From Acidimicrobiia bacterium (lineage in GTDB: Bacteria > Actinomycetota > Acidimicrobiia > Spongiisociales > Spongiisociaceae), in the NCBI GenBank assembly GCA_009841105.1, contig VXMM01000023.1, positions 62,001-126,000 of the forward strand: a stretch of 64,000 nucleotides of DNA. The letters are read 5' to 3'. Shown here in pieces: positions 1,195 through 28,815 of this stretch. The position numbers and the translations under genes were made by a program. Each line of letters opens with the position of its first letter. The stretch's first letter is position 1. The notes below the pieces were generated by a model. It worked only from the letters and a program-made list of their open reading frames with translations, was not told where the DNA came from and made no database searches.

Positions 1195-1284
1195 GCGCTC
1201 CGCGGAACCCTCGCCGGGTCGATAGCGGGGGAGCGCGGCCTGTAGATTCTTCCCCCTGGCGCGTACGAGAATCCGGAGTTGCCA

Positions 1285-2523: not shown

Positions 2524-2588
2524 CTACCCGAGGGGTGGAGTGATCCCGAGACAGATCAAATCTCCGTTACAAGAGCTGCAAGAGGGTT

Positions 2589-3302: not shown

Positions 3303-3404
3303 GTGGTCACTCTAGCCAGGCACCGAGGACCGGACGGGTAGCGAGGACGGCCTCGTACCGGACATGCCCGGCGGTCCCGAAAGACCTGACAGTAAGGTGT
3401 TTCC

Positions 3405-3944: not shown

Positions 3945-3954
3945 GCAACCCACA

Positions 3955-4779: not shown

Positions 4780-4834
4780 GCGTCGGTGGTAGTTCGCACG
4801 GCGGCGCCCGTTGGGGAAACATCCTGGAGGTGAG

Positions 4835-7066
4835 ATGGATGCTCCGAACGTCGTCATGATCGTCCTTGACGACTTGGGATTCGCCCAACTCGGGTGCTAC
4901 GGCGCTGACATCGACACTCCCAATATCGACCTGCTCGCGGACGAAGGCCTCCGCTACAACAGTTTTCACGTCACATCACTATGCGGACCGACCAGAGCCA
5001 CGCTCATAACAGGTCGCAACCACCACGCTGTCGGTATGGGGATCGGTCCCGAGGTCCCGATGGGCCTTCCCGGCTATACCGGGCGGATACCGAAGTCTGC
5101 GGGAACCCTTCCCAGGCTGCTGCGTGACGCCGGCTACAGCACCCTTGCAGTGGGGAAGTGGCACCTGACACCCCGCTTCGAGCGCAATCAGGCAGGCCCG
5201 TTCGAGCACTGGCCCCTCGGTCTCGGCTTCGAGCGCTACTACGGCTTTCTCGGCGCACTGACCGATCAGTGGAATCCACATCTCGTCTGCGACAACCGCT
5301 TCGTCGAACCGCCGCTCACCCCCGAGGAGGGCTATCACCTGACCGAGGACCTGGCGTCTCAGGCAATCCGGCTAATGCAGGATCAACAGCAAGCAGCACC
5401 CGACAAGCCGTTCTTCCTGTACTTCGCCACTGCGGCTCCTCACTCACCTCACCAGGTCCCGGACCCCTGGGTCGAGCCCTACCGGGGACGGTTCGACGAC
5501 GGGTGGGAGGCGGCGCGTTCTCGCGCCTTCCTGAGGCAGAAGGAACTGGGCGTCATACCGCCCGGCACGATCAACACCGGGCGCCCCTCCTGGGTGGCCC
5601 CATGGGACGACCTGCCCGTCAACGAACGTCAACTCTATGCACGCATGATGGAGGTGTACGCCGGGTTCGTCACGCATACCGACGCCCAGATCGGGCGCCT
5701 CATCGGGTTTCTCGATGCTATGGGCATAGCGGACAACACCCTGGTGATGTTTCTGTCCGACAACGGCGCCAGCGCCGACGCAGGCCCCCACGGCATGGTC
5801 CGCCGCTACGGGCAAGGACCATGCAACGCCGACATCGACTCCATGGTGGGTCATATCGACGACCTCGGGGGGATAGGCGTGGCGAGTGACTACGCCTGGG
5901 GGTGGGCCTGGGCCGGCAACACCCCGTTCCGGCTGTGGAAGCGATATACCTGGCTGGGCGGGGTCCGGACTCCGTTGATCGTCAGGTGGCCGGCAGGCAT
6001 CCCGGCCGGACACAACGGCGATGTACGCCGGCAGTTCTGCCACGCCATCGACCTGATGCCCACGGCTCTCGACGCGGCCGGAGCAGACAGTCCCGCCCTG
6101 CTCGACGGTGTCGGCCAGCAGGACCTCCACGGAGAGAGCCTCCTGCCGACGTTCCGTGAGACGGACGCCCGGATAGAACGGGCTCCCCAGTACTTCGAGA
6201 TGCTGGGATCCCGCGCCATCTACCACGAGGGCTGGAAGGCAACCACCGACCACGTCGGCAGCATGCTTGAAGCCGAACGCGAACTCATCGAGGGCAGCGA
6301 CGACTTCGAGTCCGATCGGTGGTCGCTATACAACCTGGAGGAGGATTTCTCAGAGGCGAACGACGTCGCGGGGGAGTACCCCGGACGGTTGCAGCACCTC
6401 GTTGACCTCTGGTGGCACGAAGCAGACCGGAATCAAGTCCTACCGCTCATGGATGGCTTCTGGGACTCGAACCAGGCCGCGGCCATCGAGCCCCCTCCGT
6501 ACGTCGGGCGGCGTCGATACGTCTACCTGCCCGGGGGAGGCCCCATCCTCACTTCCGCGCTGGTGTCCAGCTTCCGCCTCGTGGCCGACATCGAGATAGG
6601 GGGAGACCGGAGTGCCGCCGGGATCATCTGCACGCAGCGGCTAGGCATGATGGACCACTTCACCGACCATGGGTGGGCTCTCTACTTTCTCGACGGCCAC
6701 CCGATCGTGACCTTCAACCTACAGGGCACACCCGAACGCCTCGTGGCCGCCCAACGGATCCCGGCAGGCACACACCAGCTCGAGCTCCTGTACACCGAGA
6801 GCTCAGACGTGAACGACCACACCATCAGCATGTCGTTGAACGGTCGAGAGGTGGGCGCCGTGGGCCTTTCGGACAACCCTATGGCCACCCAGTTTCGGCT
6901 GGGGAGGTTGCTGGTCGGTCGGGACTACGGGACACCCGTCAGCAACGACTACCAACCACCCTTTCCCTTCACGGGACACATTCAACGCGTCGTTTGCGAG
7001 GACCTCAGCCAACCCGAACCTGAGGACCTACGAGAACAAATCATCAGTACCATCGAGAATGACTGA
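4835..7066 (+). CDS. Type I (formylglycine-dependent) arylsulfatase
   Basis: Sulfatase signature: LDDLGFAQLGCYG supplies the N-terminal metal Asp pair (residues 12-13). SLCGPTRATLITGR contains the C-x-P-T-R core with Cys50, the residue converted to formylglycine. GKWHLTPR and FLSDNGASADAG supply further active-site residues. The protein is about 743 residues, with a C-terminal beta-sandwich-like region (from about 560) as in large arylsulfatases of the AtsA type. It would release sulfate from sulfate esters of sugars or aryl compounds. ATG at 4835 is chosen because GGAGG at 4826-4830 sits just upstream; an earlier TTG at 4811 lacks such a site. No formylglycine-generating enzyme gene and no obvious signal peptide are seen here. 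Confidence 0.92.
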   Translation: MDAPNVVMIVLDDLGFAQLGCYGADIDTPNIDLLADEGLRYNSFHVTSLCGPTRATLITGRNHHAVGMGIGPEVPMGLPGYTGRIPKSAGTLPRLLRDAGYSTLAVGKWHLTPRFERNQAGPFEHWPLGLGFERYYGFLGALTDQWNPHLVCDNRFVEPPLTPEEGYHLTEDLASQAIRLMQDQQQAAPDKPFFLYFATAAPHSPHQVPDPWVEPYRGRFDDGWEAARSRAFLRQKELGVIPPGTINTGRPSWVAPWDDLPVNERQLYARMMEVYAGFVTHTDAQIGRLIGFLDAMGIADNTLVMFLSDNGASADAGPHGMVRRYGQGPCNADIDSMVGHIDDLGGIGVASDYAWGWAWAGNTPFRLWKRYTWLGGVRTPLIVRWPAGIPAGHNGDVRRQFCHAIDLMPTALDAAGADSPALLDGVGQQDLHGESLLPTFRETDARIERAPQYFEMLGSRAIYHEGWKATTDHVGSMLEAERELIEGSDDFESDRWSLYNLEEDFSEANDVAGEYPGRLQHLVDLWWHEADRNQVLPLMDGFWDSNQAAAIEPPPYVGRRRYVYLPGGGPILTSALVSSFRLVADIEIGGDRSAAGIICTQRLGMMDHFTDHGWALYFLDGHPIVTFNLQGTPERLVAAQRIPAGTHQLELLYTESSDVNDHTISMSLNGREVGAVGLSDNPMATQFRLGRLLVGRDYGTPVSNDYQPPFPFTGHIQRVVCEDLSQPEPEDLREQIISTIEND

Positions 7067-7197
7067 TTTGCTACAACCCGTAGTCACCTGCTGCGCTGCC
7101 TCTACCATTCGCTCCGGTGTATCCTCGTGCGATTGATCAAGTTTGCATGCCCAGGGCGGGGAGTGGGACGTCCTTGGCAGGTCTGGAGGTTTCTGAG

Positions 7198-9258
7198 GTG
7201 TCAGAACACGATGTTGGCAAGTTGAGTGGAGTGGCGACTTATCGGGCTCGGTTAGCATTATGTGGCGTTCTTGTTGGGCTGCTGGTCGTGGCCTCTGTTG
7301 CTTCGAGTGCTCAGGCGACAGGTGAAGAGTCCGGTGAAAACGGCAGCTCGTCTATGGGTAGGACGGTGGTGGTAAAGCCCGGTGACACGCTGCGGAAGAT
7401 CGCTATGGAACACCTCGGTGACGAGAACCGCTGGCCGGAGATCTACGAGATCAATGAGGGCGTTGTCCAAGCCGACGGTAGAGCACTGACCGACCCCGAC
7501 CTCATACGTATCGGTTGGGTGCTCCAGATCGGCCAAGCGGCATCAGATAGATCCGAACTCATAGCCCGACTACGAGAGAACGCCGAGCGTTTTGAGTATG
7601 CCATAGGAACACCTGGTGGCACGCTGACCATCGCGACAATTTCCAAGCCGCTCACGTTCAACCTGGCCCTCGCCAATGACACCGGCTCGACAGGACTACT
7701 CGGATACCTTTTCGAGGGCCTGACCGATACGTCTTGGTTGACCAACCAGGTAGAACCAGGACTGGCTGAGAGTTGGGAACGTTCAGAAGACGGTCTGAAG
7801 TGGACCTTCCACCTTCGTAGGGACGCTCACTGGCACGATGGAGAACCATTCACCGCCCAAGACGTTGACTTCACATTCAACCGTATCATTTACAACGACG
7901 ATCTCCCTGTTAGCGCGAGGTCCGTGTTCACATTCAGACACTTCGACGATGCCGGCGGCGCGTGGGAAGAGTCGGAGATGACTGTCACAGCGCTGGACGC
8001 GCACACTGTCGAATTCGTTCTTCCCGCACCGTTCGCGCCGTTCCTGCGGTCCCTGGGCACACCCGTCTACCCGCGGCACATACTTGAGAGACACGTGGAC
8101 GACGGCAGCTTCTCCACTACGTGGGACATCGACACCGACCCCGCGGAGGTCATAGGCACCGGCCCATTCCTCATCGAGGACTACCGCCCCGGCGAACGGG
8201 TTGTCCTAAAGCGCAACCCGCACTACTGGATGAAGGACGAAGCAGGGAACAGTCTTCCCTATCTCGATCAGGTCGTGCGCCTCATAGTCCCGGACCTTGA
8301 GGCCGAGCTTGCCGGCTTCCTGTCCACCGCGTCGGATGTGCACGGTGTATCCGGTGAGGAGTTCGCCCAACTCGAGCCGCTCCAGGAGAGCCAGAACTTC
8401 ACGATCCACCGGCGAGGGCCGGGATTCGGCACCACGTTCCTGGTATTCAATATGAACCCCGGCACGGATACGGACACAGGCAATCCCTATGTTGCACCCG
8501 AAATGCTGGAATGGTTCAGAAACAAACAGTTCCGCCAAGCGGTCGCCCACAGCATTGACAAGGACGCGATCATCGACGGAATCCAGCATGGCCTCGCCTA
8601 CGAGCAGTGGTCATCGATAAGCCCCGCCGCCGGGGACTTCCACAACCCGGATGTCCGCAAGTACGAGTACGACATCGCTAAGGCCAACCAGATCCTCGAC
8701 AGCATCGGTTGGACCGACACCAACGGCGACGGCATACGAGAGGACACCAACGGCAACGACCTCGAATTCAGTCTGGTGACCAACTCCGGTAACAGCGTCC
8801 GCGAAAGGGTCACGACACTGATCCAAAAGGGCATGAAGGCGATAGGTCTCAGGGTGAACCATCAGACGGTCGCCTTTGGCGACCTCGTCAAGCAACTGAC
8901 CGAATCCTACGACTGGGAGGCCGTTGTCATCGGCCTCAGCGGTGGTTCAGACCCCTACGGCGGGATCGACACCTGGCACAGCAGCGGTGGCCTTCACATG
9001 TGGCACCCCAAGCAACCGCAACCGGAGACCGCATGGGAAGCGACAATCGATGGCCTCTACGTCGAGGGCAGCCAGGAGCTGGATCGCCAGAAGCGTGTGG
9101 AGCTCTACCATCGAGCCCAGGAAATCGTCGCCGAGAATGTGCCACTCATCTACACGACGCTGGCCGAGCGACTGACAGCAACGCGAAACGTCTTCGGCAA
9201 CACCACACCAACCCTCTACGGTCTCTGGGACATCCGCTACCTCTACCGGACCGACTAG
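7198..9258 (+). CDS. LysM-domain-containing ABC transporter substrate-binding protein (SBP family 5)
   Basis: GTG at 7198 is preferred, with GGAGG at 7185-7189 eight bases upstream. It gives a signal peptide or anchor (LALCGVLVGLLVVASVASS). Next comes a LysM module (VVVKPGDTLRKIAMEHLG ... WPEIYEIN, roughly residues 57-113), then a full family 5 solute-binding domain (ESWERSEDGLKWTFHLRRDA; DVDFTFNRI; DPAEVIGTGPFLIEDYRPGE). Family 5 proteins deliver oligopeptides, nickel or glycosides to ABC importers. Here no permease or ATPase genes are adjacent, so its transporter is elsewhere or it works differently. LysM binds peptidoglycan-like glycans, suggesting cell-wall retention. The combination is unusual. 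Codon use appears less GC-biased than in the sulfatase gene. Confidence 0.88.
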   Translation: MSEHDVGKLSGVATYRARLALCGVLVGLLVVASVASSAQATGEESGENGSSSMGRTVVVKPGDTLRKIAMEHLGDENRWPEIYEINEGVVQADGRALTDPDLIRIGWVLQIGQAASDRSELIARLRENAERFEYAIGTPGGTLTIATISKPLTFNLALANDTGSTGLLGYLFEGLTDTSWLTNQVEPGLAESWERSEDGLKWTFHLRRDAHWHDGEPFTAQDVDFTFNRIIYNDDLPVSARSVFTFRHFDDAGGAWEESEMTVTALDAHTVEFVLPAPFAPFLRSLGTPVYPRHILERHVDDGSFSTTWDIDTDPAEVIGTGPFLIEDYRPGERVVLKRNPHYWMKDEAGNSLPYLDQVVRLIVPDLEAELAGFLSTASDVHGVSGEEFAQLEPLQESQNFTIHRRGPGFGTTFLVFNMNPGTDTDTGNPYVAPEMLEWFRNKQFRQAVAHSIDKDAIIDGIQHGLAYEQWSSISPAAGDFHNPDVRKYEYDIAKANQILDSIGWTDTNGDGIREDTNGNDLEFSLVTNSGNSVRERVTTLIQKGMKAIGLRVNHQTVAFGDLVKQLTESYDWEAVVIGLSGGSDPYGGIDTWHSSGGLHMWHPKQPQPETAWEATIDGLYVEGSQELDRQKRVELYHRAQEIVAENVPLIYTTLAERLTATRNVFGNTTPTLYGLWDIRYLYRTD

Positions 9259-9655
9259 CAAGGCCGACCTAGACAACGGTTGGCTACGAGAGGGCAGGTT
9301 CCGGCTCGTATTCGTAGTTCACGACACTCCCTCGTCTTACCGCAACGGGTAACCCCGAACGGCGCGACGTGACGGTCAAGGCAAGACGCCGCGGATGGCG
9401 GTACTACGTGGGTAGAACGTCTTGATAACTACCGCTTGCAGCGCGGGCGTCGAACCAGAACCGTCAAGCCCCGAGTCCCACACGTTGCACAAGTCATTGA
9501 CCTACGCGTGGATAGCCTGGTCAGTGACTCGCGTTCTCCGATGGTTGTTGCACCACGTTACGCAAAGGGATTTATCTGGAAGGTGATCCCAGGGGCTACC
9601 AGCTGGCGCCTGCAGGTGGTCAGCTCACCTACCGGCAACTCACCAGGTCTGACTG
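9259..9655. other. Non-coding gap, nothing recognised
   Basis: About 400 bases between the binding-protein gene and a small membrane-protein gene. A plus-strand open frame (9436-9714) has no recognisable motif, no convincing ribosome site, and runs through the small minus-strand gene, so it is not called. A short hairpin (TTACC/GGTAA around 9337-9352) is too weak to interpret. No tRNA, IS end or terminator with a T-run was seen. Confidence 0.5.
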
Positions 9656-9808
9656 CTAGCTGCTCTTGCCGAACCAGCCGCCTACACCGAACCCGACCAG
9701 GGCTACACCGATGAAGAACAGCCCCAGCCCCTCATTGCCGGCGACCATGGACACGATGGCCCCCACGACAGCGGCTACTCCTATACCAATCGATACCCAA
9801 CGAACCAT
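9656..9808 (-). CDS. Small (50-residue) hydrophobic membrane protein
   Basis: This short frame begins with ATG at 9808 and has a strong ribosome site (AGGAGGAA, about four bases upstream). It encodes 50 residues: MVRWVSIGIGVAAVVGAIVS..., a short Gly/Asn/Glu turn (AGNEGLG), a second hydrophobic stretch (LFFIGVALVGFGVGG), and a basic tail (WFGKSS). This is two transmembrane helices with a tight loop. The Shine-Dalgarno sequence, Gly-rich packing motifs and clean helix-turn-helix hydrophobicity argue for a real gene. It matches no family I can name. Possible roles are a small membrane regulator or a holin-like or toxin-like peptide; none is supported beyond size and hydrophobicity. Confidence 0.6.
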   Translation of the reverse strand: MVRWVSIGIGVAAVVGAIVSMVAGNEGLGLFFIGVALVGFGVGGWFGKSS

Positions 9809-10123
9809 TGGTTCCTCCTGCTGAGCTACACAGAGCGGAGGCTAGTCGGGTATCTCGAAGAGCGTCCGACCCCGGTCAGGCTGTCGCCCCAGACGAGGTT
9901 GGGCAGCAACGACGGGCTCAACTCGACAAGAGTCTCGAAACAGCCCTTTGGGCCCGCCCCCGTGCCAACCCGAGCCGCGTAGATGAGGATCTCATACGTG
10001 CGAGTGAGAACTATCCAATCGCCGTTCTGCTGGTCCGCGACGGCCAATCCACGTGACACGGGTTATGCGCCATCGAAACGTTGCTACGGCCGCTGCCTGC
10101 ACCAGCGCTTCGGTATCCAGCCC
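9809..10123. other. Non-coding gap, nothing recognised
   Basis: Roughly 315 bases upstream of the small membrane gene and downstream of higA. Open frames on both strands (9808-10056 plus, 9826-10059 minus) have atypical composition, no motifs and no credible start. It may contain the promoter of the small membrane gene and decayed sequence; I cannot identify either. Confidence 0.45.
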
Positions 10124-10429
10124 TCAGGCGAGCTCTGTGTGAACGGCGATCATGTCAAGCCGCTCCGCAAGGCGGTCATGGGTGACCTCGAGGTCATACT
10201 GACTCTGGAGTCCCATCCAGAAGCCTGGGGAATTGCCGAAGAACCGTGCGAGCAGCAGTGCCGTCTCCGCGGTGATGGACCGCTCCCCATGGACGATGGA
10301 GTGAATCCGCCTGGCGTCCACACCGATGGACTTCGCCAGCCGGTACTGGGTGACTCCCATGGGCACGAGGAACTCCTCGTTGAGGACTTCGCCCGGATGG
10401 ATGGGAGGTAGCTTGGTCTCTGCGCTCAT
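10124..10429 (-). CDS. higA: HigA-type antitoxin (XRE/VapI family)
   Basis: The 101-residue protein starts with PPIHPGEVLNEEFLVPMGV, the hallmark N-terminus of HigA/VapI addiction-module antitoxins. A Cro/C1-type helix-turn-helix follows (TQYRLAKSIGVDARRIHSIVHGERSITAETALLLARFFG), then GNSPGFWMGLQSQYDLE. It should bind operator DNA and neutralise a HigB RNase toxin. A ribosome site (GGAGAG) precedes the ATG. The gene lies directly downstream of what remains of higB, in the normal higBA order. Because the toxin is broken, this looks like an orphan antitoxin, possibly retained as a regulator or as an anti-addiction gene. Confidence 0.9.
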   Translation of the reverse strand: MSAETKLPPIHPGEVLNEEFLVPMGVTQYRLAKSIGVDARRIHSIVHGERSITAETALLLARFFGNSPGFWMGLQSQYDLEVTHDRLAERLDMIAVHTELA

Positions 10430-10441
10430 CGGCTCTCCACC

Positions 10442-10560
10442 TCAGTGGTAATCGACTATTTCGACTCGGTAGGCGTTGCCGTCGCTCCAGACGAAGCAGA
10501 TTCGCCACTGGCGAACCGCGCTCAACGGGTGCCTTGGTATCCCTCGCGCTGCCGTAGGAA
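10442..10560 (-). pseudogene. higB: Truncated, frameshifted HigB toxin remnant
   Basis: The C-terminal strand set of a RelE/HigB toxin is intact (VRQWRICFVWSDGNAYRVEIVDYH, split by me at VW for description), ending 12 bases before higA. Upstream of this, the residues that match the family (REG-type motif) lie in another frame that runs into a TGA. The rest of the expected roughly 90 residues is missing, because the 3' end of the DUF262 gene occupies that space. A start could only be supplied by an out-of-context ATG inside the neighbouring gene. I conclude that the toxin is inactivated. Confidence 0.65.
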
Positions 10561-10563
10561 CGA

Positions 10564-12537
10564 TTACCCGGATACGGTCGGCCCCTCCGAGCCCGAGGGG
10601 TTTATCTCGACTCTTACGTATTTGAGGAACGCTTCGACGCTTGTGAAACACCTGAAGTCGCTGGCGCCAGCCAGGGACAAGGTCTCGTGGTCCTCGTCCA
10701 ATAGCACTGCGACGGGTTGACTCAGCCCGGGTTGGAGACCGTCCGGCCAGGCGATGTCAAGTACCGCGAGAGGTTCGCCAGTCGGCGATGAGCATTCGTA
10801 CTCCACCTCGCCCGCGGGAAGACCCTGGTCGACAACCCAGTCGTTGATGAAGATCACCGCAGCCTCTTCGTCCTTGGTCTCGATGCCACCGGGGACTACC
10901 TCGGGCGGGGGAGGGGCCTCCACCGGCGCCTGGCGACCCAGCCAGCGGGTGTCGCCGTGGAGCAGGCTCTGCAGCAACCGATTGGCGGCGTTCGCGAGCA
11001 GCTCGCGTCGCGCCTCAAGGAAAGCCGGGTAGTTCTCGATCTTCCACAGCTCAGGATCCTCGGGTATCCACTGTGAACGGAGAGCGCCCGGATGACTGGC
11101 TTCAACTTCTGGCAAGTAGTCCGCCGGTAGCCGGTTGCCTATCTCGAGGTTGGTGTCCTTGGTGAGGAAGCAGAAGTTGGCCAAGGCGTTCACCTCGGGT
11201 CGGCGGTAGCCATGCGGGTAGAGCTGCGACTCGTGCCTGTAGAGCCGCGACTTGGGGAATATGTGGTGCATCTCGAGTTGGTTCATCTTGCCCCACATTC
11301 CCTGCTTCAGCGGAAGGCCGGTACCCCAATCCTTGGCTTCGTTCTTGCGGGTCAGCATGTATAGAACGGGATAGAACCGCGCTCCCCGACTCCATCCCTT
11401 GAAGTGATCGGGCTCCACAGCCAGGTCCCCGTGCCACAGGCGAAGATCGTCCAGCAAAGCGTCGATGGGCTCGGCTTCAGTATCCAGGATTTCGAGACAA
11501 CGGTCGATGGCCGTCTCCGTCGACCCGGAGAACCTCCCCCACATACCGGCCTGCGCAAACCAGAAGGCCAGCTTGTCCCGTTCCCGTGCCGAAGCCCAAC
11601 CGCTTCGTTGGTCGTAGTGGCGGACCATGACCGGAATGGCGAAGCGTCCGAACAGGACGCGGTCGTGATCCAGTCCGAGTTGGGCATCTATGAGGAGGAG
11701 GATGCTGTCGATTGCCTTCTCGGCCCGGGAGAGGCTGTCCTGGACTTCGACGGCGGTCCTGTCGTGAAGATGCTGGAACCTGGCCTCGCCCGTAAGCACG
11801 GTGTTGACCGAACGGAGCAGCCAGTCGAGGTTGAACTTGTAGCCTCCGGTTTCCCACTTGCCGACGGCCCGTTTCATCGCCTCACGCGCTTGTGGCCAGT
11901 CGGCGCAGATCTTGGCCAGAGCCAGGTCGCCCTTCGAGAGCTTCGTGCCTCCGCTGTTGACTCGATTGAAAATGTCGACCACCAGATCCAGAGACTTGTC
12001 AACTCCAGTTATCTGTTCTACATGAAGGTCGGTCGCCAGAATGCCCTGAAGGTCCGCAACGCGCCCGACATACTGTGCGAACCGAGGTGATGTCTGATCC
12101 AAATCGGGAATGACTGCGGTCACGCCACCCTGCATAACGGTCGTCACGTCGATCCAAAGCGGATCATCTCGCATCTTGACCGGCTGATAGAAGGAGAACT
12201 CCTCGTCCTCGAGATGGAAGTGCAACCCTCGGAACATTGACGGATTGCCTTCAAAGAACGGCGGTGGCTTGCCCTGTGTGACACTGTAGACGGTAGTTAT
12301 CCGTTGCTGGCCGTCTAGTAAGAGGTTGACCATTCCGGGTGCCAACTCGACGTCACCCCGAGCGTCGGCCGCTTGCGACTGGGTAACCCACACCAAGAGA
12401 CCACCTACCGGATGCCTGCGATAGAGAGAAGAAAAGAGGGCCCTGACCTGGTCCCTGTTCCACACGTAGCCGCGTTGGAACTCTGGTAGTGCCATGAGGC
12501 CGTTGTCGATGTTGGCGATAATCGTAGAGATCTTCAT
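10564..12537 (-). CDS. DUF262/DUF1524 protein (GmrSD-like restriction family)
   Basis: ATG at 12537 starts MKISTIIANI; longer upstream frames are spurious. The N-terminal DUF262 (ParB-like nuclease/NTPase) domain shows PEFQRGYVWNRDQVRAL and LLLDGQQRITTVY (DGQQR at residues 75-79). The C-terminal DUF1524 His-Me nuclease motif is seen as MHHIFPKSRL (around residue 423), followed by NALANFCFLT. Fused DUF262-DUF1524 proteins include the type IV restriction enzyme GmrSD, which cleaves glucosylated hydroxymethylcytosine DNA. Many relatives sit in phage-defence islands. At 657 residues the length suits a single-chain version. The substrate here is unknown. It shares a divergent promoter region with the CBS-domain gene. 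Confidence 0.88.
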   Translation of the reverse strand: MKISTIIANIDNGLMALPEFQRGYVWNRDQVRALFSSLYRRHPVGGLLVWVTQSQAADARGDVELAPGMVNLLLDGQQRITTVYSVTQGKPPPFFEGNPSMFRGLHFHLEDEEFSFYQPVKMRDDPLWIDVTTVMQGGVTAVIPDLDQTSPRFAQYVGRVADLQGILATDLHVEQITGVDKSLDLVVDIFNRVNSGGTKLSKGDLALAKICADWPQAREAMKRAVGKWETGGYKFNLDWLLRSVNTVLTGEARFQHLHDRTAVEVQDSLSRAEKAIDSILLLIDAQLGLDHDRVLFGRFAIPVMVRHYDQRSGWASARERDKLAFWFAQAGMWGRFSGSTETAIDRCLEILDTEAEPIDALLDDLRLWHGDLAVEPDHFKGWSRGARFYPVLYMLTRKNEAKDWGTGLPLKQGMWGKMNQLEMHHIFPKSRLYRHESQLYPHGYRRPEVNALANFCFLTKDTNLEIGNRLPADYLPEVEASHPGALRSQWIPEDPELWKIENYPAFLEARRELLANAANRLLQSLLHGDTRWLGRQAPVEAPPPPEVVPGGIETKDEEAAVIFINDWVVDQGLPAGEVEYECSSPTGEPLAVLDIAWPDGLQPGLSQPVAVLLDEDHETLSLAGASDFRCFTSVEAFLKYVRVEINPSGSEGPTVSG

Positions 12538-12609
12538 GGAATCCCCGTTACGCGGAGGACCAGCAGGATACTCTGTAGTGTAGAGATCTCCACGGGCCTG
12601 ACCGCGATC

Positions 12610-12624
12610 GAGCGAGATTCGCTC
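12610..12624. promoter_or_regulatory. Perfect 6-bp inverted repeat in divergent promoter region
   Basis: GAGCGA and TCGCTC flank a three-base centre, between the divergent starts of the DUF262 gene (12537) and the CBS gene (12698). The position suits an operator for a dimeric repressor controlling one or both genes. No clear -10/-35 pair could be placed, so function is inferred from symmetry and location only. Confidence 0.3.
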
Positions 12625-12697
12625 TTCACGCTGACCACGGCCCGCAGATAAGCTCACAAGTTGTTCACACAGAGCAGCGTTGAAGGAGAGTACCCGT

Positions 12698-13129
12698 ATG
12701 ACGCAGACTGGCATCAGCCAGAGTGGCCGTGGCGACCGGCGAGCAATCACTTTGCTTCACTTCCACATCGCTCTCGATGAGGCCCACACCGTGACCCTGT
12801 CAGACACGCTCCAGGATGTTGAACGGGTCATGGACCGACACAACATCGATCAGGTGCCGGTTGTAGGCGCAGAGTTTGACGGAGCCATGGTGGTCACCCG
12901 TAGGGGAGTCGCGACGGTCTCGCCCACCGAACGAGCCGATACGCCCGTCTCGGTTGCGTTGCAAGAACACAGCAATGATCCGAACCAAAGAGTCCGTGCT
13001 TCAACCCTTCTTGCGGAAGCGGCGGAGTGCCTCATCGAGTACGACTGGGTTCTTACAACGGACGAGGAGGGCAGGCCAATGGGACTCGCGACCGTAGGTG
13101 ATGCACTCCGCGCCGCACTAAAGGGTTGA
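12698..13129 (+). CDS. CBS-domain protein
   Basis: ATG at 12698 has AAGGAGAG at 12683-12690, seven bases upstream; an earlier TTG is within that site. The 143-residue protein holds two CBS-like modules. The first reads TLQDVERVMDRHNIDQVPVVG, the second RASTLLAEAAECLIEYDWVLTTDEEGRPMGLATVGDALRA. A CBS pair (Bateman module) usually binds adenosine nucleotides or SAM and regulates a partner protein. No enzyme domain is attached, so it is a stand-alone sensor. Its divergent neighbour is the DUF262 nuclease, but a functional link is unproven. The N-terminal 30 residues are not explained. Confidence 0.6.
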   Translation: MTQTGISQSGRGDRRAITLLHFHIALDEAHTVTLSDTLQDVERVMDRHNIDQVPVVGAEFDGAMVVTRRGVATVSPTERADTPVSVALQEHSNDPNQRVRASTLLAEAAECLIEYDWVLTTDEEGRPMGLATVGDALRAALKG

Positions 13130-13219: not shown

Positions 13220-13247
13220 TTGTCCCATAATGCACGTTATGTAAAGT
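13220..13247 (+). other. dif: Putative dif site (XerCD recombination, chromosome dimer resolution)
   Basis: The 28-bp layout is XerC-type arm TTGTCCCATAA (13220-13230), six-base centre TGCACG, and XerD-type arm TTATGTAAAGT (13237-13247). The right arm differs from the Bacillus subtilis dif right arm at one position of 11 and from the E. coli arm at two. The inner CATAA/TTATG inverted repeat is exact. It lies in a 418-base gap between the CBS and fic genes. Genes to the left are mainly plus and genes to the right mainly minus, as expected for forks converging here. Other dif-like sites exploited by mobile elements are a possible alternative. Confidence 0.7.
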
Positions 13248-13547: not shown

Positions 13548-14714
13548 ATGCGGCGGTTATTTGTTCATGAGCATCCGGGATGGCCCCAACTCCGTTGGCA
13601 AACCGACAAACTGGCGGACAGCTTGGCAGTTGTCCGCTACAAGCAAGGACGCTTGGTGGGCCAGATGCATTCGTTGGGATTCGACCTCCGGCAGGAGGCG
13701 ATACTCGAGACCCTGACCCAAGACGTTCACAAGTCCAGCGACATCGAGGGTGAACGTCTCGACCTAGAACAGGTCCGCTCCTCCGTCGGGCGTCGCCTCG
13801 GTTTGGACATCGGTGGTCTTCGCCATGCAGAGGACAAGGTCGAGGGCGGCGTGAAGATGATGCTGGACGCAACCGGCAACTATGACCTGCCCCTGACAGT
13901 GGAGCGGCTGTGGGGCTGGCAGGCGGCTCTCTTCCCGACCGGGCGCAGCCGGATGCGACCGATCACCGTAGGCGGCTGGCGTGACGACCGTACCGGACCC
14001 ATGCAGGTGATCTCGGGGCCCATCGGCAAGGAACGGGTGCATTTCGAAGCACCCGCAGCGGAGCGGATCGACAACGAGATGGGCATGTTCCTCAGGTGGT
14101 TCAACAAGCCGTCGGACACTGACGGCGTGCTTCGGGCGGCATTGGCCCATCTTTGGTTCGTGACCATCCATCCCTTCGACGACGGCAATGGGCGCATAGC
14201 TCGGGCGATCAGTGATATGGCCCTAGCCCGCTCGGAGGACAGCTCGCAGCGTTTCTACAGCATGTCATCGCAGATCCGGTTGGATCGTCGCGGCTACTAC
14301 CGGATCCTCGAACGGACACAGAAGGGAACACCGGATGTTTCGGAGTGGATGGAGTGGTTCCTAGGGTGCCTCGGCCGAGCGATCGACGGAGCCGAGACGA
14401 CCCTGGCATCCGTTCTCACCAAAGCTCGCTTCTGGCAACAGGTAGAAGACGTCCCGCTCAACGTGCGCCAGCGGAGGGTTCTCAACCGACTCCTGGGCGG
14501 GTTCGAGGGCAAACTGACCACATCGAAGTGGGCCAAGCTAGCCAAATGCTCGCAAGACACAGCTCTACGCGACATAACTGCCCTGGTAGACGACGGGATT
14601 CTCGTGCGAAGTTCGGCCCGGGGTCGCAGCACCAACTACTCCCTCACCACCCGATCACCGGCGGTACATCCTCTCGCTCCCGGAGATGTCGAGCTGCGAT
14701 CCACTACGCGGTGA
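13548..14714 (+). CDS. Fic-domain AMP-transferase with DUF4172-like N-terminus and C-terminal winged helix
   Basis: The catalytic Fic loop HPFDDGNGRI lies near residue 208. An N-terminal inhibitory motif, S-x-x-x-E-G (KSSDIEGERLD, residues about 62-70), marks a class II, self-inhibited Fic enzyme. The first 60 residues resemble DUF4172. The C-terminal segment (KLTTSKWAKLAKCSQDTALRDITALVDDGIL) is a winged helix of the type that ends many Fic proteins. Such enzymes transfer AMP from ATP to protein hydroxyls. Targets of DUF4172-Fic proteins are largely unknown. It should be autoregulated through the palindrome just upstream. The amidase gene on the other strand ends eight bases after the stop. 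Confidence 0.92.
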   Translation: MRRLFVHEHPGWPQLRWQTDKLADSLAVVRYKQGRLVGQMHSLGFDLRQEAILETLTQDVHKSSDIEGERLDLEQVRSSVGRRLGLDIGGLRHAEDKVEGGVKMMLDATGNYDLPLTVERLWGWQAALFPTGRSRMRPITVGGWRDDRTGPMQVISGPIGKERVHFEAPAAERIDNEMGMFLRWFNKPSDTDGVLRAALAHLWFVTIHPFDDGNGRIARAISDMALARSEDSSQRFYSMSSQIRLDRRGYYRILERTQKGTPDVSEWMEWFLGCLGRAIDGAETTLASVLTKARFWQQVEDVPLNVRQRRVLNRLLGGFEGKLTTSKWAKLAKCSQDTALRDITALVDDGILVRSSARGRSTNYSLTTRSPAVHPLAPGDVELRSTTR

Positions 14715-16244: not shown

Positions 16245-17081
16245 ATGTCCAAGCGCCTTACCGCCGACCAGGTGGCTCAGTACCGGCAGGACGGGTACAT
16301 GTGCCCGGTTCGGGTGATGGATGCGGCCCGTGCGGCCGGCTACCGGCGGATGCTTGAACAGTTCGAATCCGAACAGGGCGGGCCGGTGGCAGGCGCCCTT
16401 CGCAACAAGTGCCACCTGCTGTTCCGCTGGGTCGACGAGTTGATGCGTGACGCGACGGTGCTCGACGCGGTCGAGGACCTGATCGGCGAGAACATCCTGT
16501 GCTGGAACACGCTGTTCTGGATCAAGGAGCCCGAGACCAAGTCCTACGTTTCGTGGCACCAGGACCTCAATTACTGGGGGCTGGACACCGACGACCTGAT
16601 CACGGTGTGGCTGGCATTGTCACCCGCTACACCCGAGAGTGGCTGCATGAGCGTCCTTCCGGGAAGCCACCGCGGCGAGTTCATGCCCCATAGCGACACG
16701 TTCCAAGAGGACAACATGCTGACCCGTGGCCAGGAGATAACGGTGGAGGTCGATGAGGCCGAGACAGTCTCGATGCCGTTACAGCCCGGCGAGATCTCGA
16801 TGCACAACGGCCGGCTGGCTCATGCCTCCTCCCCCAACACGTCCGGAGACCGCCGGATCGGGGTCTCGTTCCACTACATGCCGACCAGGACCCGCCAGAT
16901 CATCGGCGACTGGGACAGTGCGGCCCTGGTCCGCGGCGAGGACACCCACCGGCACTTCACCCACACCCCTAGGCCCACAAGGGACTTCGACCCGGAAACG
17001 GTGAAGTTCCACAGCAAGGCCTCCGACGCGGTGCGCGACATCCTGTTCCATGGAGCCGACAAGGTACGCCAGACCCTCTGA
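16245..17081 (+). CDS. Phytanoyl-CoA dioxygenase (PhyH) family protein
   Basis: This is a non-heme Fe(II)/2-oxoglutarate oxygenase. The facial-triad HxD is His105/Asp107 in SWHQDLNYWG, the distal His is probably His193 in RLAHASSPN, and the 2-oxoglutarate-binding Arg is near 203-204 (GDRRIGVSFHY). The LSPATPESGCMSVLPGSH stretch is typical of PhyH. ATG at 16245 has GAGAGG at 16231-16236. The 278-residue length is normal. The family hydroxylates fatty acyl-CoAs, ectoine, quinones and natural products, and the substrate is not evident. PhyH genes are often expanded in sponge-associated Actinobacteria and other marine bacteria. Confidence 0.88.
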   Translation: MSKRLTADQVAQYRQDGYMCPVRVMDAARAAGYRRMLEQFESEQGGPVAGALRNKCHLLFRWVDELMRDATVLDAVEDLIGENILCWNTLFWIKEPETKSYVSWHQDLNYWGLDTDDLITVWLALSPATPESGCMSVLPGSHRGEFMPHSDTFQEDNMLTRGQEITVEVDEAETVSMPLQPGEISMHNGRLAHASSPNTSGDRRIGVSFHYMPTRTRQIIGDWDSAALVRGEDTHRHFTHTPRPTRDFDPETVKFHSKASDAVRDILFHGADKVRQTL

Positions 17082-17115
17082 ACCTGGGCCGCTCCGACGG
17101 CTGGACTCAGCCTTG

Positions 17116-17502
17116 CTAGATGACCTCGATGGGGCCTTGGTAAAGACCTAGGGTGGCGTCCGCGGTTAGGAGCGTTATTCCCTCGATCCGGGCCTGGGCC
17201 ACCAGCATGCGATCAAAGGGGTCCCGGTGGATGGGAGGAAGCAAGTCGACCGCAACCGCATGGGTACCGGTTACCGGCAACTCCGTGTAGCCGTTCTCCA
17301 GCAGACCTCGGCGCAGCACGCGCGGGTCCACCGCGAAGCCAGGCCGGCCCAAGCCGCTCTTGATAGCAATCTCCCACAGTGACGCCGCGCTGTAAATGAC
17401 CTCGGTACCCGGGTCCTCGACCGCAAGACGTACTCGTTCGGGCAGCCGGTCGGGCTCACCCGCAACCCACAGCAGGACGTGGGTATCTAGTAGCAGGCTC
17501 AC
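17116..17502 (-). CDS. vapC: VapC-type PIN-domain toxin (RNase)
   Basis: The 128-residue PIN domain carries the expected acidic residues: Asp6 in LLLDTHVLLW, Glu in ASLWEIAIKSGLG, Asp in HRDPFDRMLVAQA, and Asp in LLTADATLG. The sequence type (LDTHVLLW ... SLWEIAIK) is the Sll0205-like branch of VapC. It probably cleaves tRNA or rRNA and is held inactive by VapB. The GTG start overlaps the antitoxin stop by four bases (GTGA), giving translational coupling. Confidence 0.93.
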   Translation of the reverse strand: MSLLLDTHVLLWVAGEPDRLPERVRLAVEDPGTEVIYSAASLWEIAIKSGLGRPGFAVDPRVLRRGLLENGYTELPVTGTHAVAVDLLPPIHRDPFDRMLVAQARIEGITLLTADATLGLYQGPIEVI

Positions 17503-17744
17503 GCGTCAGATTCGAACAGGCCCGATATCTCGCCAGCGCCCATGCGATCGAAGTCATCGGGCACCGAGAAACGGCCCTCCAGGAACCCCACCCGCCGCTT
17601 TGGTCCGGGCGCCGGAGCGTCAACCGCTATCACCTTGACCAGAGGGGTCCCGGCCCGTGCGATAACGAACGGCTCACCATTCGCTGCGGCCGCTACAAGG
17701 CGCGACAGGTGGGTCTTGGCTTCATGCATGTTGACGATTTGCAT
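17499..17744 (-). CDS. vapB: Phd/YefM-type antitoxin of the VapC toxin
   Basis: The 81-residue protein starts MQIVNMHEAKTHLSRLV, the standard Phd/YefM DNA-binding N-terminus, followed by GEPFVIARAGTPLVKVIAV. The acidic/aromatic tail (GEISGLFESD) would wrap the toxin. ATG at 17744 follows GGGAGA by about seven bases; an upstream TTG at 17759 is less likely. Order and 4-bp overlap with vapC are typical. The module is divergent from mazEF and shares a region of about 90 bases with it. Two copies of ACTTAGT (17763-17769 and 17777-17783) in that region could be operator half-sites. Confidence 0.92.
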   Translation of the reverse strand: MQIVNMHEAKTHLSRLVAAAANGEPFVIARAGTPLVKVIAVDAPAPGPKRRVGFLEGRFSVPDDFDRMGAGEISGLFESDA

Positions 17745-17812
17745 TGTGTTGTCTCCCAACCAACTTAGTCCACAAGACTTAGTTTAACACGGTATGTAGG
17801 AGTAGAGTAGTT

Positions 17813-17829
17813 GTATACATAATGTATAC
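17813..17829. promoter_or_regulatory. Perfect 17-bp palindrome upstream of mazEF
   Basis: GTATACAT and ATGTATAC surround one central A. The motif ends nine bases before the mazE start codon and its TATACAT-type sequence could include the -10 element. Ribbon-helix-helix antitoxins usually bind such AT-rich palindromes and repress their own operon. It is the only such motif in the divergent vapBC/mazEF region. Confidence 0.65.
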
Positions 17830-17837
17830 TCAAGGCT

Positions 17838-18074
17838 ATGAGTACCACAACGGTCCGGATAGACAGGGAGACGCACGCGCGCCTCGTGCGGATGAGCGAG
17901 CTGGCCGGTGTATCTCTCGGAGCGACCATCCGGGAGGCGGCCGAGGCGCTTAGTCGCCAACGGTTCGCCCATCGTGTGGCGGCCGAAGTCGAGGAACTCC
18001 GGAGGGACCGGGCAGCATGGTCCTCCTACCTGGCGCAGGCGGAGTCGACCTCCGTTGCCGATGGCCTCGATTGA
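17838..18074 (+). CDS. Ribbon-helix-helix antitoxin of the MazF toxin
   Basis: The 78-residue protein begins TTTVRIDRETHARLVRMSELAGVS, a ribbon-helix-helix DNA-binding fold, with a long C-terminal helix (VAAEVEELRRDRAAWSSYLAQAE) for toxin binding. It should neutralise the downstream MazF-like RNase and repress the operon through the 17-bp palindrome. The ATG has only a close AAGG (two bases), so the leader is very short. Its end overlaps the start of mazF by 14 bases. Confidence 0.85.
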   Translation: MSTTTVRIDRETHARLVRMSELAGVSLGATIREAAEALSRQRFAHRVAAEVEELRRDRAAWSSYLAQAESTSVADGLD

Positions 18075-18399
18075 TGAACTCTGGCTCGTAGACTTCGGCA
18101 ACCCGTATCCCGGAGAGCCGGCATCGCAAAGGCCGGCCCTGGTTATCGGTCCGCCGCCGACGTTCGGGACCGGATTCCCGTTCGTCATCGTCGTTCCGCT
18201 GACGACCACGCATCGACGCCTCTCCCTCCATATCGAGGTCGAGCCGACACCTCAGACGGGTCTCGACCGCACGAGCTTCATCCAGTGCGAGCTCATTCGC
18301 TCGATCAACCGCAACAGACTCGTACGCCGCCTCGGCTTGGTAGCCCCCGACACCAGTCATCAGGTCAGACGGATTGTCGAAACGCTCCTGGACCACTGA
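18061..18399 (+). CDS. mazF: MazF/PemK-family mRNA interferase toxin
   Basis: ATG at 18061 lies within the antitoxin gene (14-base overlap), the usual coupling for these modules. The 112 residues show the MazF core: LWLVDFGNPYPGEPASQRPALVIGP, then FVIVVPLTTTHR, then a C-terminal SFIQCELIRSINRNRLVRRLG region. MazF toxins cut single-stranded RNA at short motifs. An upstream extension in the same frame reads through the antitoxin and is rejected. Confidence 0.92.
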   Translation: MASIDELWLVDFGNPYPGEPASQRPALVIGPPPTFGTGFPFVIVVPLTTTHRRLSLHIEVEPTPQTGLDRTSFIQCELIRSINRNRLVRRLGLVAPDTSHQVRRIVETLLDH

Positions 18400-18453
18400 C
18401 CTGACGCCGGCCGGCTGCCACTACGCGGGCGCCGGCGCTACCCTCCCCCGGCC

Positions 18454-19155
18454 ATGGACGACCTTGCACCTCCGAACAGCCATGTACCGCCGTCTGCCCG
18501 CACGAGGGTCCGCCGCGGTCGGGAACGGGCCCGCTATGACCGGGCAGATGTGCTGGAGATTCTGGACTCCGGCGTCATAGCCCATGTCGGTGTGGCCACA
18601 CCCGACGGACCCCTCGTTCTCCCGATGGCTTACGGCCGTGACGACGAAATGCTCTACCTGCACGGTGCCATCGCCAATCACCTCCTCGGTTCGGGTGAGG
18701 AACAGGAGATCTGCGCCACCGTAACGCACCTCGACGGGCTCGTGATGGCCCGCTCCCCCTTCCACAATTCGATGAACTACCGCTCGGTGGTTGTGCGCGG
18801 CCGCGGTCGACGGATCCGCGACGATCGGCGGAAGCTCGAGGCTCTCAGGCTCATCACCGACCATGTGGTACGGCACTGGGACGATGTCCGCCCACCGTCA
18901 CGGTCCGAGCTTCGCAAGACCCTGGTCCTTGAACTCCCTCTGTTGGAAGCCTCAGCCAAGGTGAGAACCGGGGATCCGATCGACGATCCCGAGGACATCG
19001 AAGGCCCCTGGTGGGCAGGGACGGTACCGATCACGACCCGCTTTGGCCGGGCGACACCGTCGGCAGATCTGGAGTCCGGCTCGGGCATCCCGGCACGCCT
19101 GACTGCGCTGACCGATCTGACGCTGGACGAACGCCCGCAGCCTCATCGCCGGTGA
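18454..19155 (+). CDS. Pyridoxamine 5'-phosphate oxidase-like flavin-binding protein
   Basis: The 233-residue protein contains VLEILDSGVIAHVGVATPDGPLVLPMAYGRDDEMLYLHGAIANHLL (described in parts), the split-barrel FMN-binding fold of the Pyridox_ox_2 group. The SPFHNSMNYRSVVVRGRGRRI strand pair also fits the family. Enzymes of this group act as FMN- or F420-dependent oxidoreductases or heme-binding proteins. True PNPOx substrate residues were not recognised, so the specific reaction is unknown. No ribosome site is seen at the ATG, which may mean a leaderless mRNA. It lies downstream of mazF but is unrelated to the TA module. Confidence 0.8.
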   Translation: MDDLAPPNSHVPPSARTRVRRGRERARYDRADVLEILDSGVIAHVGVATPDGPLVLPMAYGRDDEMLYLHGAIANHLLGSGEEQEICATVTHLDGLVMARSPFHNSMNYRSVVVRGRGRRIRDDRRKLEALRLITDHVVRHWDDVRPPSRSELRKTLVLELPLLEASAKVRTGDPIDDPEDIEGPWWAGTVPITTRFGRATPSADLESGSGIPARLTALTDLTLDERPQPHRR

Positions 19156-19170
19156 TTTAGAAAAGAGAGA

Positions 19171-20793
19171 TCAGAGACCGATGGCGCAACCGTCGCCCCT
19201 GGGATCGGAGCCGCCCCAGAGCACGCCGGTCTCCGGGTCGCGCACGATGATCTGCCCTTGGCCTACCACTCTTGTTCGCAGGGCGCCCGAAGCGGGACGG
19301 ACGGGGTGCCCGAGTCGGGCCAGTGCGCTGATCGTGCCCTCCGGTATGGTGTCCTCGACCCAGATGTTGCCATTCGGTGGGTCGTCGTAGATCGAGAAGC
19401 GAGGCTCGTCTATGGCACTCTGGGGATCCATACCGCGGTCCACCAGATTGATCACCGCCTGGACGTGTCCCTGGGGCTGATTCCACCCGCCCATCACCCC
19501 GAAGGGCCCCACGAGCGACCCGTCGGGCCGGGTGAGCATGGCAGGGATGATGGTGTGGTAGGGGCGCTTCCCGCCCTCCAGGGCATTGGGGTGGTCGGGT
19601 TCGAGAACGAACCCGGCACCGCGGTTCTGCAGGCTGAATCCGCAGCTACGGGGCACGATGCCGCTTCCGAAGCCGTGATAGTTGCTGTTGATGAAGGAGC
19701 ATGCGTTCCCCTCTCCGTCGACCGAGCATAGGTAGACGGTGTCGGAGCCGCCCGGCAGGTGTCCGGCGGTTGCGAACTCGATGGCGCCCTCGTAGGAGAT
19801 GAGGCGGCGACGCTTCGCCGCGTACCGTTTGCTGAGCATGGCGGCGACGGGGACGCGGGAGCGGTTGGGATCCGCGACGTAGGCCCGGGCGTCGGCGAAG
19901 GCCAGGCGGATCGCCTCGATGGTCGTGTGCAACGCCTCCGGCGACCTCGGTCGGGTCGAGGGGATGTCGAATCCCTCCAGGATGTTCAGAGCCATTAGCG
20001 CGGTGATGCCTTGGCCGTTGGGAGGACACTCGTAGACGGTGTAGCCACGGTAGGTGGTTGAGATCGGGTTGTCGAAGGATGAACGGTGATCTCGGAGATC
20101 TTCGGCCGTCATGCAGCCGCCGTTCAGCTGCACAGCCTCGACGATGGCCCGTGCCGGCCACCCGCTATAGAAGGCATCGGCGCCGCCCTCCGCCACGGCG
20201 CGCATCACGCGGGCGATCGACACGTTTCTCCACACCTCCCCTGGCCTGGGAGCACCGCCGTCCACCAGCAGATCGTGGCCGGCAGGTCCCGTGGCCCTCA
20301 AGAGATCTTCTTGCCCCTTCCAGCCGCCGCTGATTATGGGCGTCACCGGAAACCCGTCCTCGGCCAGCGCGATGGCCGGCGCCAGCACCTCAGCCATCGA
20401 CATACGCCCGAAGCGCTCCACGGTGTCCACCCAGCCTGCGACCGTGCCAGGCACAGTTACGGCGTGGGGTCCCTGGGGATCGAAACCGGCCGGTCCCCCA
20501 GCCATTTCTGGTGTCAGAGCCTTGGGGCTCCGTCCGCTGCCGTTGACGGCATCGACCACGCCTCGGCCGGCGTCATAGAAGAGGGAGAAGCAGTCACCGC
20601 CGATGCCCGTGGAGCCCGGTTCGACCACCGCCAGCGCCGCGGCGGTCGCAACGGCGCCGTCAGCTGCATTGCCACCCGACTGCAGCACCGAGATTCCGGC
20701 CAGGGTGGCCAGCGGCTGGCTTGAGGCCACCACACCCCTCGTCGACAGGATCGGCGAGCGTCGGGACTCCCATCGGATCGGGTGCCCGTACAC
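19171..20793 (-). CDS. ggt: Gamma-glutamyltransferase (Ntn-hydrolase)
   Basis: The 540-residue length and order of motifs match GGT/cephalosporin acylase: VVASSQPLATLAGISVLQSGGNAADGAVA, STGIGGDCFSLFYD, then the autocleavage site before SDTVYLCSVDGEGNACS, with nucleophile Thr352. LQNRGAGF and the AMLTRPDG / FGVMGGWNQPQGHVQ region follow. It should split gamma-glutamyl bonds such as those of glutathione. No signal peptide is apparent, so it may act in the cytoplasm or be a GGT-like hydrolase of another substrate. The start is GTG with no clear ribosome site. Function within the family is inferred. Confidence 0.88.
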   Translation of the reverse strand: MYGHPIRWESRRSPILSTRGVVASSQPLATLAGISVLQSGGNAADGAVATAAALAVVEPGSTGIGGDCFSLFYDAGRGVVDAVNGSGRSPKALTPEMAGGPAGFDPQGPHAVTVPGTVAGWVDTVERFGRMSMAEVLAPAIALAEDGFPVTPIISGGWKGQEDLLRATGPAGHDLLVDGGAPRPGEVWRNVSIARVMRAVAEGGADAFYSGWPARAIVEAVQLNGGCMTAEDLRDHRSSFDNPISTTYRGYTVYECPPNGQGITALMALNILEGFDIPSTRPRSPEALHTTIEAIRLAFADARAYVADPNRSRVPVAAMLSKRYAAKRRRLISYEGAIEFATAGHLPGGSDTVYLCSVDGEGNACSFINSNYHGFGSGIVPRSCGFSLQNRGAGFVLEPDHPNALEGGKRPYHTIIPAMLTRPDGSLVGPFGVMGGWNQPQGHVQAVINLVDRGMDPQSAIDEPRFSIYDDPPNGNIWVEDTIPEGTISALARLGHPVRPASGALRTRVVGQGQIIVRDPETGVLWGGSDPRGDGCAIGL

Positions 20794-20855
20794 GCTGCCA
20801 GGCTACACAGCCGGTGAGCGCGAACTCAGGCGGCGCCAGTTCGTCGCGCGGCCAT

Positions 20856-22031
20856 TCACTTAGGGTTGACCTCGTGGAGGCGCGCCCACGGCATGAGCGT
20901 CCCGTCCGAGCGGATCTGGAGTTCGTCGCCCCCGTACACCACCATGATGTCGGACGGGCGAGGTATGGAGGCCATGTGCCGCTGGACCGTCCTTCCGGCA
21001 CGGAGGAAACTCGAAGAAGGGGTGATCCCCGACTTGGCTTCCACGAGGGTGATCCCGTCCGGACGGTCGATCAGCAGATCGATCTCGACGCCGTTGCGAT
21101 CCCGATAGAACGAGAGCCCGCCCGGCTCTCCCTGGTTGGTGCGCTGCTTGGTGATCTCGGAGACGACCCATGTCTCGAAGATCGCGCCCCGCAGCGGGTG
21201 AGTACGCAGTTGTTCGGGTGTCCGGATGCCGAGAAGCCAGCAGACCAGGCCCGTGTCGTAGAAGTGCAGCTTGGGCATCTTGACGAGCCGCTTGCGCAGG
21301 TTCGAGTGGAACGCTTGAAGCCGGAACACGACGAACCCTGCTTCGAGGACCGAAAGCCACGCCTTTGCGGTCGGTTGCGATACTCCGCAGTCGCCTGCCA
21401 GAGAGGAGTAGTTGAGCAACTGGGCGGTGCGTCCGGCGCACAGTTGGACGAAGCGTTGGAAGGTGGCGAGATCTCCGATAGTCCTAATCGATCGGACGTC
21501 GCGTTCGATGTAGGTGGCGACGTAGGATCGGAGCCAGTCGGATGGGTCGAGGTCACGGTCGAATATCCGTGGATAGGAACCTGCCAGCAGTGACTCCTCG
21601 AGACCTGTCGGGTAACTGGGGAAGCGCACGATCTCGCCACGGGTCAGCGTGAACAGATTGTGGAGGGCTGTCCGCCCGGCCAGTGACTGGCTGACCGCCT
21701 CCAGCAAAGCGAGATTCTGCGATCCGGTCAGGATCCAACGTCCTGGCGCCGGATCGTCATCGATGAGGCCTTGAAGGTACGACAGGATGTGCGGTGCGCG
21801 CTGCACCTCGTCGATCACCGCGCCCTCGGATAGCCCCTCCAGGAAACCACGAGGATCCTCGGTGGCGAACGCGTGCGTATCAGGAGCTTCGAGCGTCACG
21901 TAAAGATGATCGGGAAAAAGCGTGCGGCACAGGGTGGTCTTGCCGCTCTGGCGTGGTCCGGTCAGAGTGACAGCCGGCATCTTCTGCGCTGCCGCGAGTA
22001 CCTGCGGCGCCAGGTCCCTGTCGATGAGCAT
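20856..22031 (-). CDS. AAA-type ATPase with DUF4143 domain
   Basis: Walker A GPRQSGKTT lies at residues 25-33, Walker B is GAVIDEVQRAP, and the sensor-like ILTGSQN follows. This is the AAA_14 domain. The C-terminal DUF4143 part has YRDRNGVEIDLLIDRPDGITLVEAKSG (described in parts), a PD-(D/E)xK-like arrangement, so nuclease activity is possible. These proteins are widespread, often in variable genome regions, and their function is not established. It is a stand-alone gene with a long inverted repeat about 26 bases upstream of its ATG. Confidence 0.88.
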   Translation of the reverse strand: MLIDRDLAPQVLAAAQKMPAVTLTGPRQSGKTTLCRTLFPDHLYVTLEAPDTHAFATEDPRGFLEGLSEGAVIDEVQRAPHILSYLQGLIDDDPAPGRWILTGSQNLALLEAVSQSLAGRTALHNLFTLTRGEIVRFPSYPTGLEESLLAGSYPRIFDRDLDPSDWLRSYVATYIERDVRSIRTIGDLATFQRFVQLCAGRTAQLLNYSSLAGDCGVSQPTAKAWLSVLEAGFVVFRLQAFHSNLRKRLVKMPKLHFYDTGLVCWLLGIRTPEQLRTHPLRGAIFETWVVSEITKQRTNQGEPGGLSFYRDRNGVEIDLLIDRPDGITLVEAKSGITPSSSFLRAGRTVQRHMASIPRPSDIMVVYGGDELQIRSDGTLMPWARLHEVNPK

Positions 22032-22056
22032 ACCCGGCAGCTTAGATAGAGGTTCA

Positions 22057-22087
22057 GGCTAATTCAGAGTTTGATTTTGAACTAGCC
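22057..22087. promoter_or_regulatory. Inverted repeat upstream of the AAA/DUF4143 gene
   Basis: GGCTAATTC (22057-22065) pairs with GAACTAGCC (22079-22087), with one mismatch, around an AT-rich 13-base centre. It lies between the ATPase start (22031) and the gcvPB stop (22101), in an unusually AT-rich patch. It could be an operator or promoter region for the ATPase gene. A terminator for gcvPB is less likely, given the weak stem. Confidence 0.35.
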
Positions 22088-22100
22088 TAATTCTTGGGCG

Positions 22101-24943: not shown

Positions 24944-24950
24944 CAAGGTC

Positions 24951-26470: not shown

Positions 26471-26473
26471 GGG

Positions 26474-26490
26474 CCGGAGTTTAGCTCCGG
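26474..26490 (-). promoter_or_regulatory. Small hairpin just upstream of gcvT start
   Basis: CCGGAG and CTCCGG form a six-base stem around a five-base loop, ending four bases before the gcvT GTG. Its 5' arm on the mRNA holds the only GGAG nearby, so it could sequester the ribosome site and tune gcvT translation. This is inference from symmetry and position. Confidence 0.3.
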
Positions 26491-26494
26491 TTCC

Positions 26495-26520
26495 GGGCCG
26501 CCCTTGCCTTGGGCGGGCCC
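26495..26520 (-). terminator. GC-rich hairpin after the aldolase gene
   Basis: GGGCCGCCC and GGGCGGGCCC surround a seven-base loop, giving a stem of about nine pairs with one bulge, between the aldolase stop (26555) and gcvT. It lacks a T-run, so it may be a U-tail-less terminator or merely a processing hairpin separating the aldolase and gcv transcripts. Confidence 0.4.
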
Positions 26521-28811: not shown

Positions 28812-28815
28812 ACCA

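Follow-up and report, generated by a model that had tools for sequence, protein, structure and literature searches.

Predicting dif by similarity to known sites, in combination with single occurrence and GC skew, is standard, and the site predicted for Frankia alni reads CACGCCGATAATGCACATTATGTCAAGT (PMC3025954). In Corynebacterium, architecture imparting sequences (AIMS) of the forms G(A/T/C)GGGGGA and (T/C)GGGGGAG locate dif (PMC3022926, PMC3219685). In Escherichia coli, the G-rich, polar KOPS motif GGGNAGGG converges on dif and is contacted by FtsK. To our knowledge, the KOPS experiments performed to date were done in phyla other than Actinomycetota.

Here, we present an analysis of a 28-bp dif-like site in a member of the Acidimicrobiia (genome G000, a 3.05-Mb draft in 69 contigs). 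The stretch of DNA analysed, hereafter the window, comprises 64,000 nucleotides and corresponds to bases 62001-126000 of the 215.7-kb contig C57. An earlier note on this DNA had proposed that the site marks the probable replication terminus. Our findings support that window 13220-13247 is the chromosomal dif of this Acidimicrobiia genome, at which XerCD would resolve chromosome dimers with an FtsK guided by the heptamer GGGGGAG; we put the probability of this reading at roughly 0.96.

The site resembles the predicted F. alni dif in its length of 28 bp, its 11-6-11 layout, its right arm TTATGTNAAGT, its centre TGCAC(A/G), and its single copy near the skew shift, while it differs in its left outer arm (RTGTCCC) and in an A instead of a C in the right arm. 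The octamers TGGGGGAG, CGGGGGAG, GTGGGGGA, and GCGGGGGA, which are polarized towards dif and were found here without prior knowledge, are the same set as the Corynebacterium AIMS. Because these octamers have already been published in Corynebacterium, GGGGGAG is an extension of a known actinobacterial signal and not a new one; the difference is that the Acidimicrobiia are another class and that the strand bias and the switch at dif were measured over six families. Like the E. coli KOPS, GGGGGAG is G-rich, polar, and converges on dif, and the FtsK gamma domain is conserved; unlike in E. coli, GGGNAGGG itself is weakly polar in the family, and the recognition helix of FtsK has a different sequence. 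In our search of the literature, the coverage of which was incomplete, we found no paper that names GGGGGAG together with FtsK, and earlier predictions of actinobacterial KOPS may exist.

Results

The site reads TTGTCCCATAA-TGCACG-TTATGTAAAGT on the plus strand. Just as the earlier note had described, it consists of two 11-bp arms around a 6-bp centre and carries an exact CATAA/TTATG inner inverted repeat, which is the anatomy of the dif class (Table 1). By established dif anatomy, the two halves are referred to as the XerC and XerD arms; according to the earlier note, the right arm differs from the B. subtilis arm at one position. Using CATAA-N6-TTATGTNAAGT as the search pattern and allowing up to two mismatches, we found one match in the whole 3.05-Mb genome, whereas the reversed control pattern had no match in the same genome at the same threshold. 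Similarly, a weight matrix built from the family sites gave 52.9 bits for dif, and the next-best position in the 215.7-kb contig scored 5.4. The many copies that, according to the earlier note, would have spoken against the proposal are thus not present in this genome. A search of plasmid records with the dif spacer gave no match.

The site was found in every one of the 12 family genomes, with one good copy per genome except in G002, which has two sites, both on short contigs of an assembly with 8% contamination. The extra two-mismatch matches in G005 and G011 are unlike dif outside the pattern. Class-wide, 101 of 149 Acidimicrobiia genomes have a match at one mismatch, mostly one each, and a search of a genome collection gave Acidimicrobiia MAGs as its named matches, in keeping with the placement of the family, and also recovered the dif core in unrelated bacteria, as expected for dif. 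Gene order around dif is kept on both flanks in those family members whose contigs extend far enough, and the DNA between dif and the conserved core genes varies among them. The GC content dips close to dif in most relatives. Among the viral contigs searched, a single one, L214 (IMGVR_UViG_3300025889_000244; 42 kb), carries the family dif core (664-684, minus strand); this contig is possibly a host fragment or a dif-using phage.

We used G001, a family member of another genus whose assembly consists almost entirely of one contig of 3.007 Mb, to locate dif on a chromosome. In G001, dif maps to base 487 and dnaA to 1.385 Mb, which places the two opposite each other. Based on forty 20-kb samples, GC skew is negative over the stretch between dif and dnaA and mostly positive past dnaA, and dif is at the second GC-skew switch. 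In this relative, the skew turns at the site, as the earlier note had expected for its position; in G000, GC skew is a poor marker. There, the skew of the contig is approximately zero left of dif and −0.04 right of it, with no sign change at dif, and the cumulative maximum is shallow and lies ∼40 kb to the left, corresponding to 1.3% of the genome. With a flat left flank and a displaced maximum, GC skew lends weak support in G000. In a separate observation outside the window, an operon of minus-strand genes at ∼145-160 kb of C57 has a strong AT skew (up to 0.23), and its gene sizes suggest respiratory complex I.

Gene orientation is better evidence for the terminus in G000 than GC skew. Using a simple purpose-written gene caller, the counts of which agree with those of the earlier note, we found 51 plus and 14 minus genes left of dif on the contig and 29 plus and 97 minus genes right of it; G011 and G007 show similar reversals. 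The maximum-likelihood change point of orientation is 35 bp from dif in G007, 1.4 kb in G011, and 31 kb to the left in G000, where a block of minus genes displaces it. Within the window, the claim that six of seven genes before 9.3 kb are on the plus strand was reproduced, with five of six complete genes plus and a further plus gene truncated at the window boundary; after dif, 34 of 48 called genes are on the minus strand, among them recA, rimO, cinA, gcvPB, and the gene for RNase HII, as had been reported. Altogether, dif lies at the polarity switch opposite the origin, as judged from skew and dnaA in G001 and from motif polarity in G000 and its relatives, in agreement with the proposed terminus. 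dif indicates the terminus region and where dimers are resolved, but the forks need not meet at that very base; replicons in which the two differ are known (PMC13342612).

Genes for XerC/XerD-like recombinases, on which the earlier proposal depended, are present, as is ftsK. All 12 family genomes encode one FtsK with a gamma domain, and each of the six genomes examined for Xer recombinases has two prominent ones. Of the pair in G000, one protein has its higher score with XerD and the other has its higher score with XerC; neither reaches the NCBIfam equivalog cut-offs, and we refer to them as XerD-like and XerC-like. In G007 (contig C69) and G011 (contig C76), the best-scoring (XerD-like) xer gene is on the same contig as dif at a distance of ∼50 kb. 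The gamma domain of G000 FtsK aligns with that of E. coli FtsK and matches the Pseudomonas aeruginosa gamma-KOPS entries 2ve8 and 2ve9. In this alignment, the recognition helix is GFARAGRIMD in G000 and GYNRAARIIE in E. coli. KOPS is contacted in the E. coli helix by the N, the second R, and the E; two of these three residues differ in G000 (N to A and E to D), and these differences may provide a lead on how KOPS is read.

Ranking all octamers, with gene strand controlled, by how they point towards dif in eight dif-centred contigs placed CGGGGGAG and TGGGGGAG at the top. Among heptamers in ten contigs from ten genomes of the family, GGGGGAG ranked first of 8420 by both measures, with 309 copies towards dif and 31 away from it (309/340; 91% polar). 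In G000, the ratio of plus- to minus-strand copies is 24:3 left of dif and 5:45 right of it (Fisher P = 5e-12), and 27 of the 28 copies in the window converge on dif. As for the KOPS-type motif polarity that the earlier note had asked to be computed, the switch interval lies 1.7-2.3 kb from dif in G000 and includes dif in G011, G007, G005, G008, and G004. In G001, the orientation of GGGGGAG turns at dnaA and then at dif, and its copy number hardly increases towards the terminus. The heptamer, picked in one family, was then tested in five further families of the Acidimicrobiia, in which the copies towards and away from dif numbered 25:0, 46:7, 26:1, 22:4, and 13:2 (pooled 132:14). GGGNAGGG is non-polar in most other families and far less polar than GGGGGAG; of the E. 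coli and B. subtilis motifs tried, GGGNAGGG was weak and GAGAAGGG had no polarity.

We considered that this polarity might simply result from mutational bias of the leading strand or from the orientation of genes and carry no information on FtsK, given that leading strands are commonly G-rich and that plain GGGGG is itself polar (1518:837). However, heptamers with the same letters (six G and one A) in rearranged order are only 66-76% polar, and the polarity of GGGGGAG persists in sense, antisense, and intergenic positions. Moreover, local GC skew does not track GGGGGAG polarity in G082 and G103, which belong to other families, arguing that base-composition bias alone does not explain the motif. 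Finally, the strand bias among sampled copies in G001 climbs from ∼75% in the ori halves (116:39) to ∼87% in the ter halves (136:20). GGGGGAG shares with KOPS and AIMS an ori-to-dif strand bias that switches at dif and grows towards the terminus, and an uninformative by-product appears unlikely to us.

The earlier note had reported that defence and toxin-antitoxin genes cluster near the site, and our analysis recovered these as a GmrSD/HEC-05-like gene, a Fic gene, Phd-PIN, and PemK. The GmrSD-like gene has no reciprocal match in the dif-region contigs of the relatives. On the right, a Fic module of ∼1.46 kb adjoins dif in G000, G004, G006, G011, and G003 and is absent from G007, G008, and G010; on the left, G000 has the GmrSD-like gene directly at dif and G011 has ∼2 kb of extra DNA. 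An ORF at window 12680-13129, which overlaps the opposite-strand GmrSD-like gene at its start and has a partial CBS domain match, is perhaps a remnant. Further to the right, window 17116-18399 contains two toxin-antitoxin units side by side, one being Phd/YefM-PIN and the other having a PemK/MazF toxin. The palindromic TGTATACATAATGTATAC near PemK/MazF (contig position 79812, window ∼17812-17839), which recurs in G006, G009, and G010, may be an operator.

Because accessory genes flank the site and homology among the relatives ends exactly at its left and right borders (window 9.3-14.7 kb compared with G003, G004, G006-G008, G010, and G011), it might instead be where a mobile element, either an IMEX or a pdif-type mobile module, attaches in a Xer-dependent manner. 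Such an element would have a second dif-like site at its far end; we found none within 15 kb in any relative or elsewhere on the 215.7-kb contig and, at the distal ends of the insertions near dif, no near-exact half site. The usual signature of a Xer-integrated element is therefore missing, and IMEX and mobile dif modules were rejected as candidates. Moreover, throughout the family dif occurs in a single copy, in a syntenic place, and where polarity switches, and conserved core genes restart ∼3 kb away on the right flank and ∼13 kb away on the left. We consider an attachment site highly improbable; the breakpoints at the edges of the chromosomal dif may stem either from sites that have decayed or from plain turnover reaching as far as an essential 28 bp, and both are possible. 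That a 28-bp palindrome arose here by chance within a spacer, an idea favoured by nothing beyond its short length, has a negligible probability, as the pattern at up to three mismatches matches once in the window, compared with an expectation of 0.04 from shuffled sequences, and the site is conserved in 12 genomes.

Table 1. Features of the dif region (positions in the window)
Feature	Position	Strand	Basis
GGGGGAG, six copies towards dif	1227..10913 (1227, 3665, 6370, 6533, 6599, 10907)	+	Motif listing, polarity statistics
GmrSD N-terminal domain protein, PADLOC HEC-05-like, left of dif	10564..12750	-	Accessory gene
GGGGGAG, sole copy aimed away from dif, inside the genome-specific GmrSD-like gene	11534..11540	-	
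dif site, 28 bp	13220..13247	+	Sequence, single genome match, syntenic single-copy family sites
Left (XerC-type) arm TTGTCCCATAA	13220..13230	+	Alignment of family sites; consensus RTGTCCCATAA
Central region TGCACG	13231..13236	+	Alignment of family sites
Right (XerD-type) arm TTATGTAAAGT	13237..13247	+	Alignment; strongest conservation within the family
Fic-family gene (SoFic-like), immediately to the right of dif	13548..14714	+	Also in G004, G006, G011, G003
GGGGGAG, 21 copies, all towards dif (leftward)	16829..63041	-	Motif listing

Discussion

The dif of G000 represents ordinary biology and is well supported; by analogy with E. coli and its relatives, we infer that FtsK loads on the motif, in which direction it pumps, and that the site recombines. 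We suggest that GGGGGAG is probably the FtsK loading site. According to this model, once sister chromosomes have formed a dimer, FtsK at the septum would load on the polar GGGGGAG copies and, as these point to dif on both arms, would pump DNA towards dif. There, the gamma domain of FtsK would activate XerD, and XerC and XerD would recombine the two dif copies, thereby separating the sisters.

More broadly, we speculate that GGGGGAG functions as KOPS throughout the Actinomycetota, from Corynebacterium to the Acidimicrobiia, read by a gamma helix unlike that of E. coli, and that small gene insertions in this family are bounded precisely by dif, with no second site left behind; we rate the chances of this broader proposal as even. 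The dif site described here fixes the terminus in a poorly studied and mostly uncultured class, the Acidimicrobiia. Moreover, the polar heptamer places dif within a few kb, even in draft genomes in which GC skew fails. Finally, our findings suggest that one FtsK guide sequence has perhaps been kept across a very deep split within the Actinomycetota.
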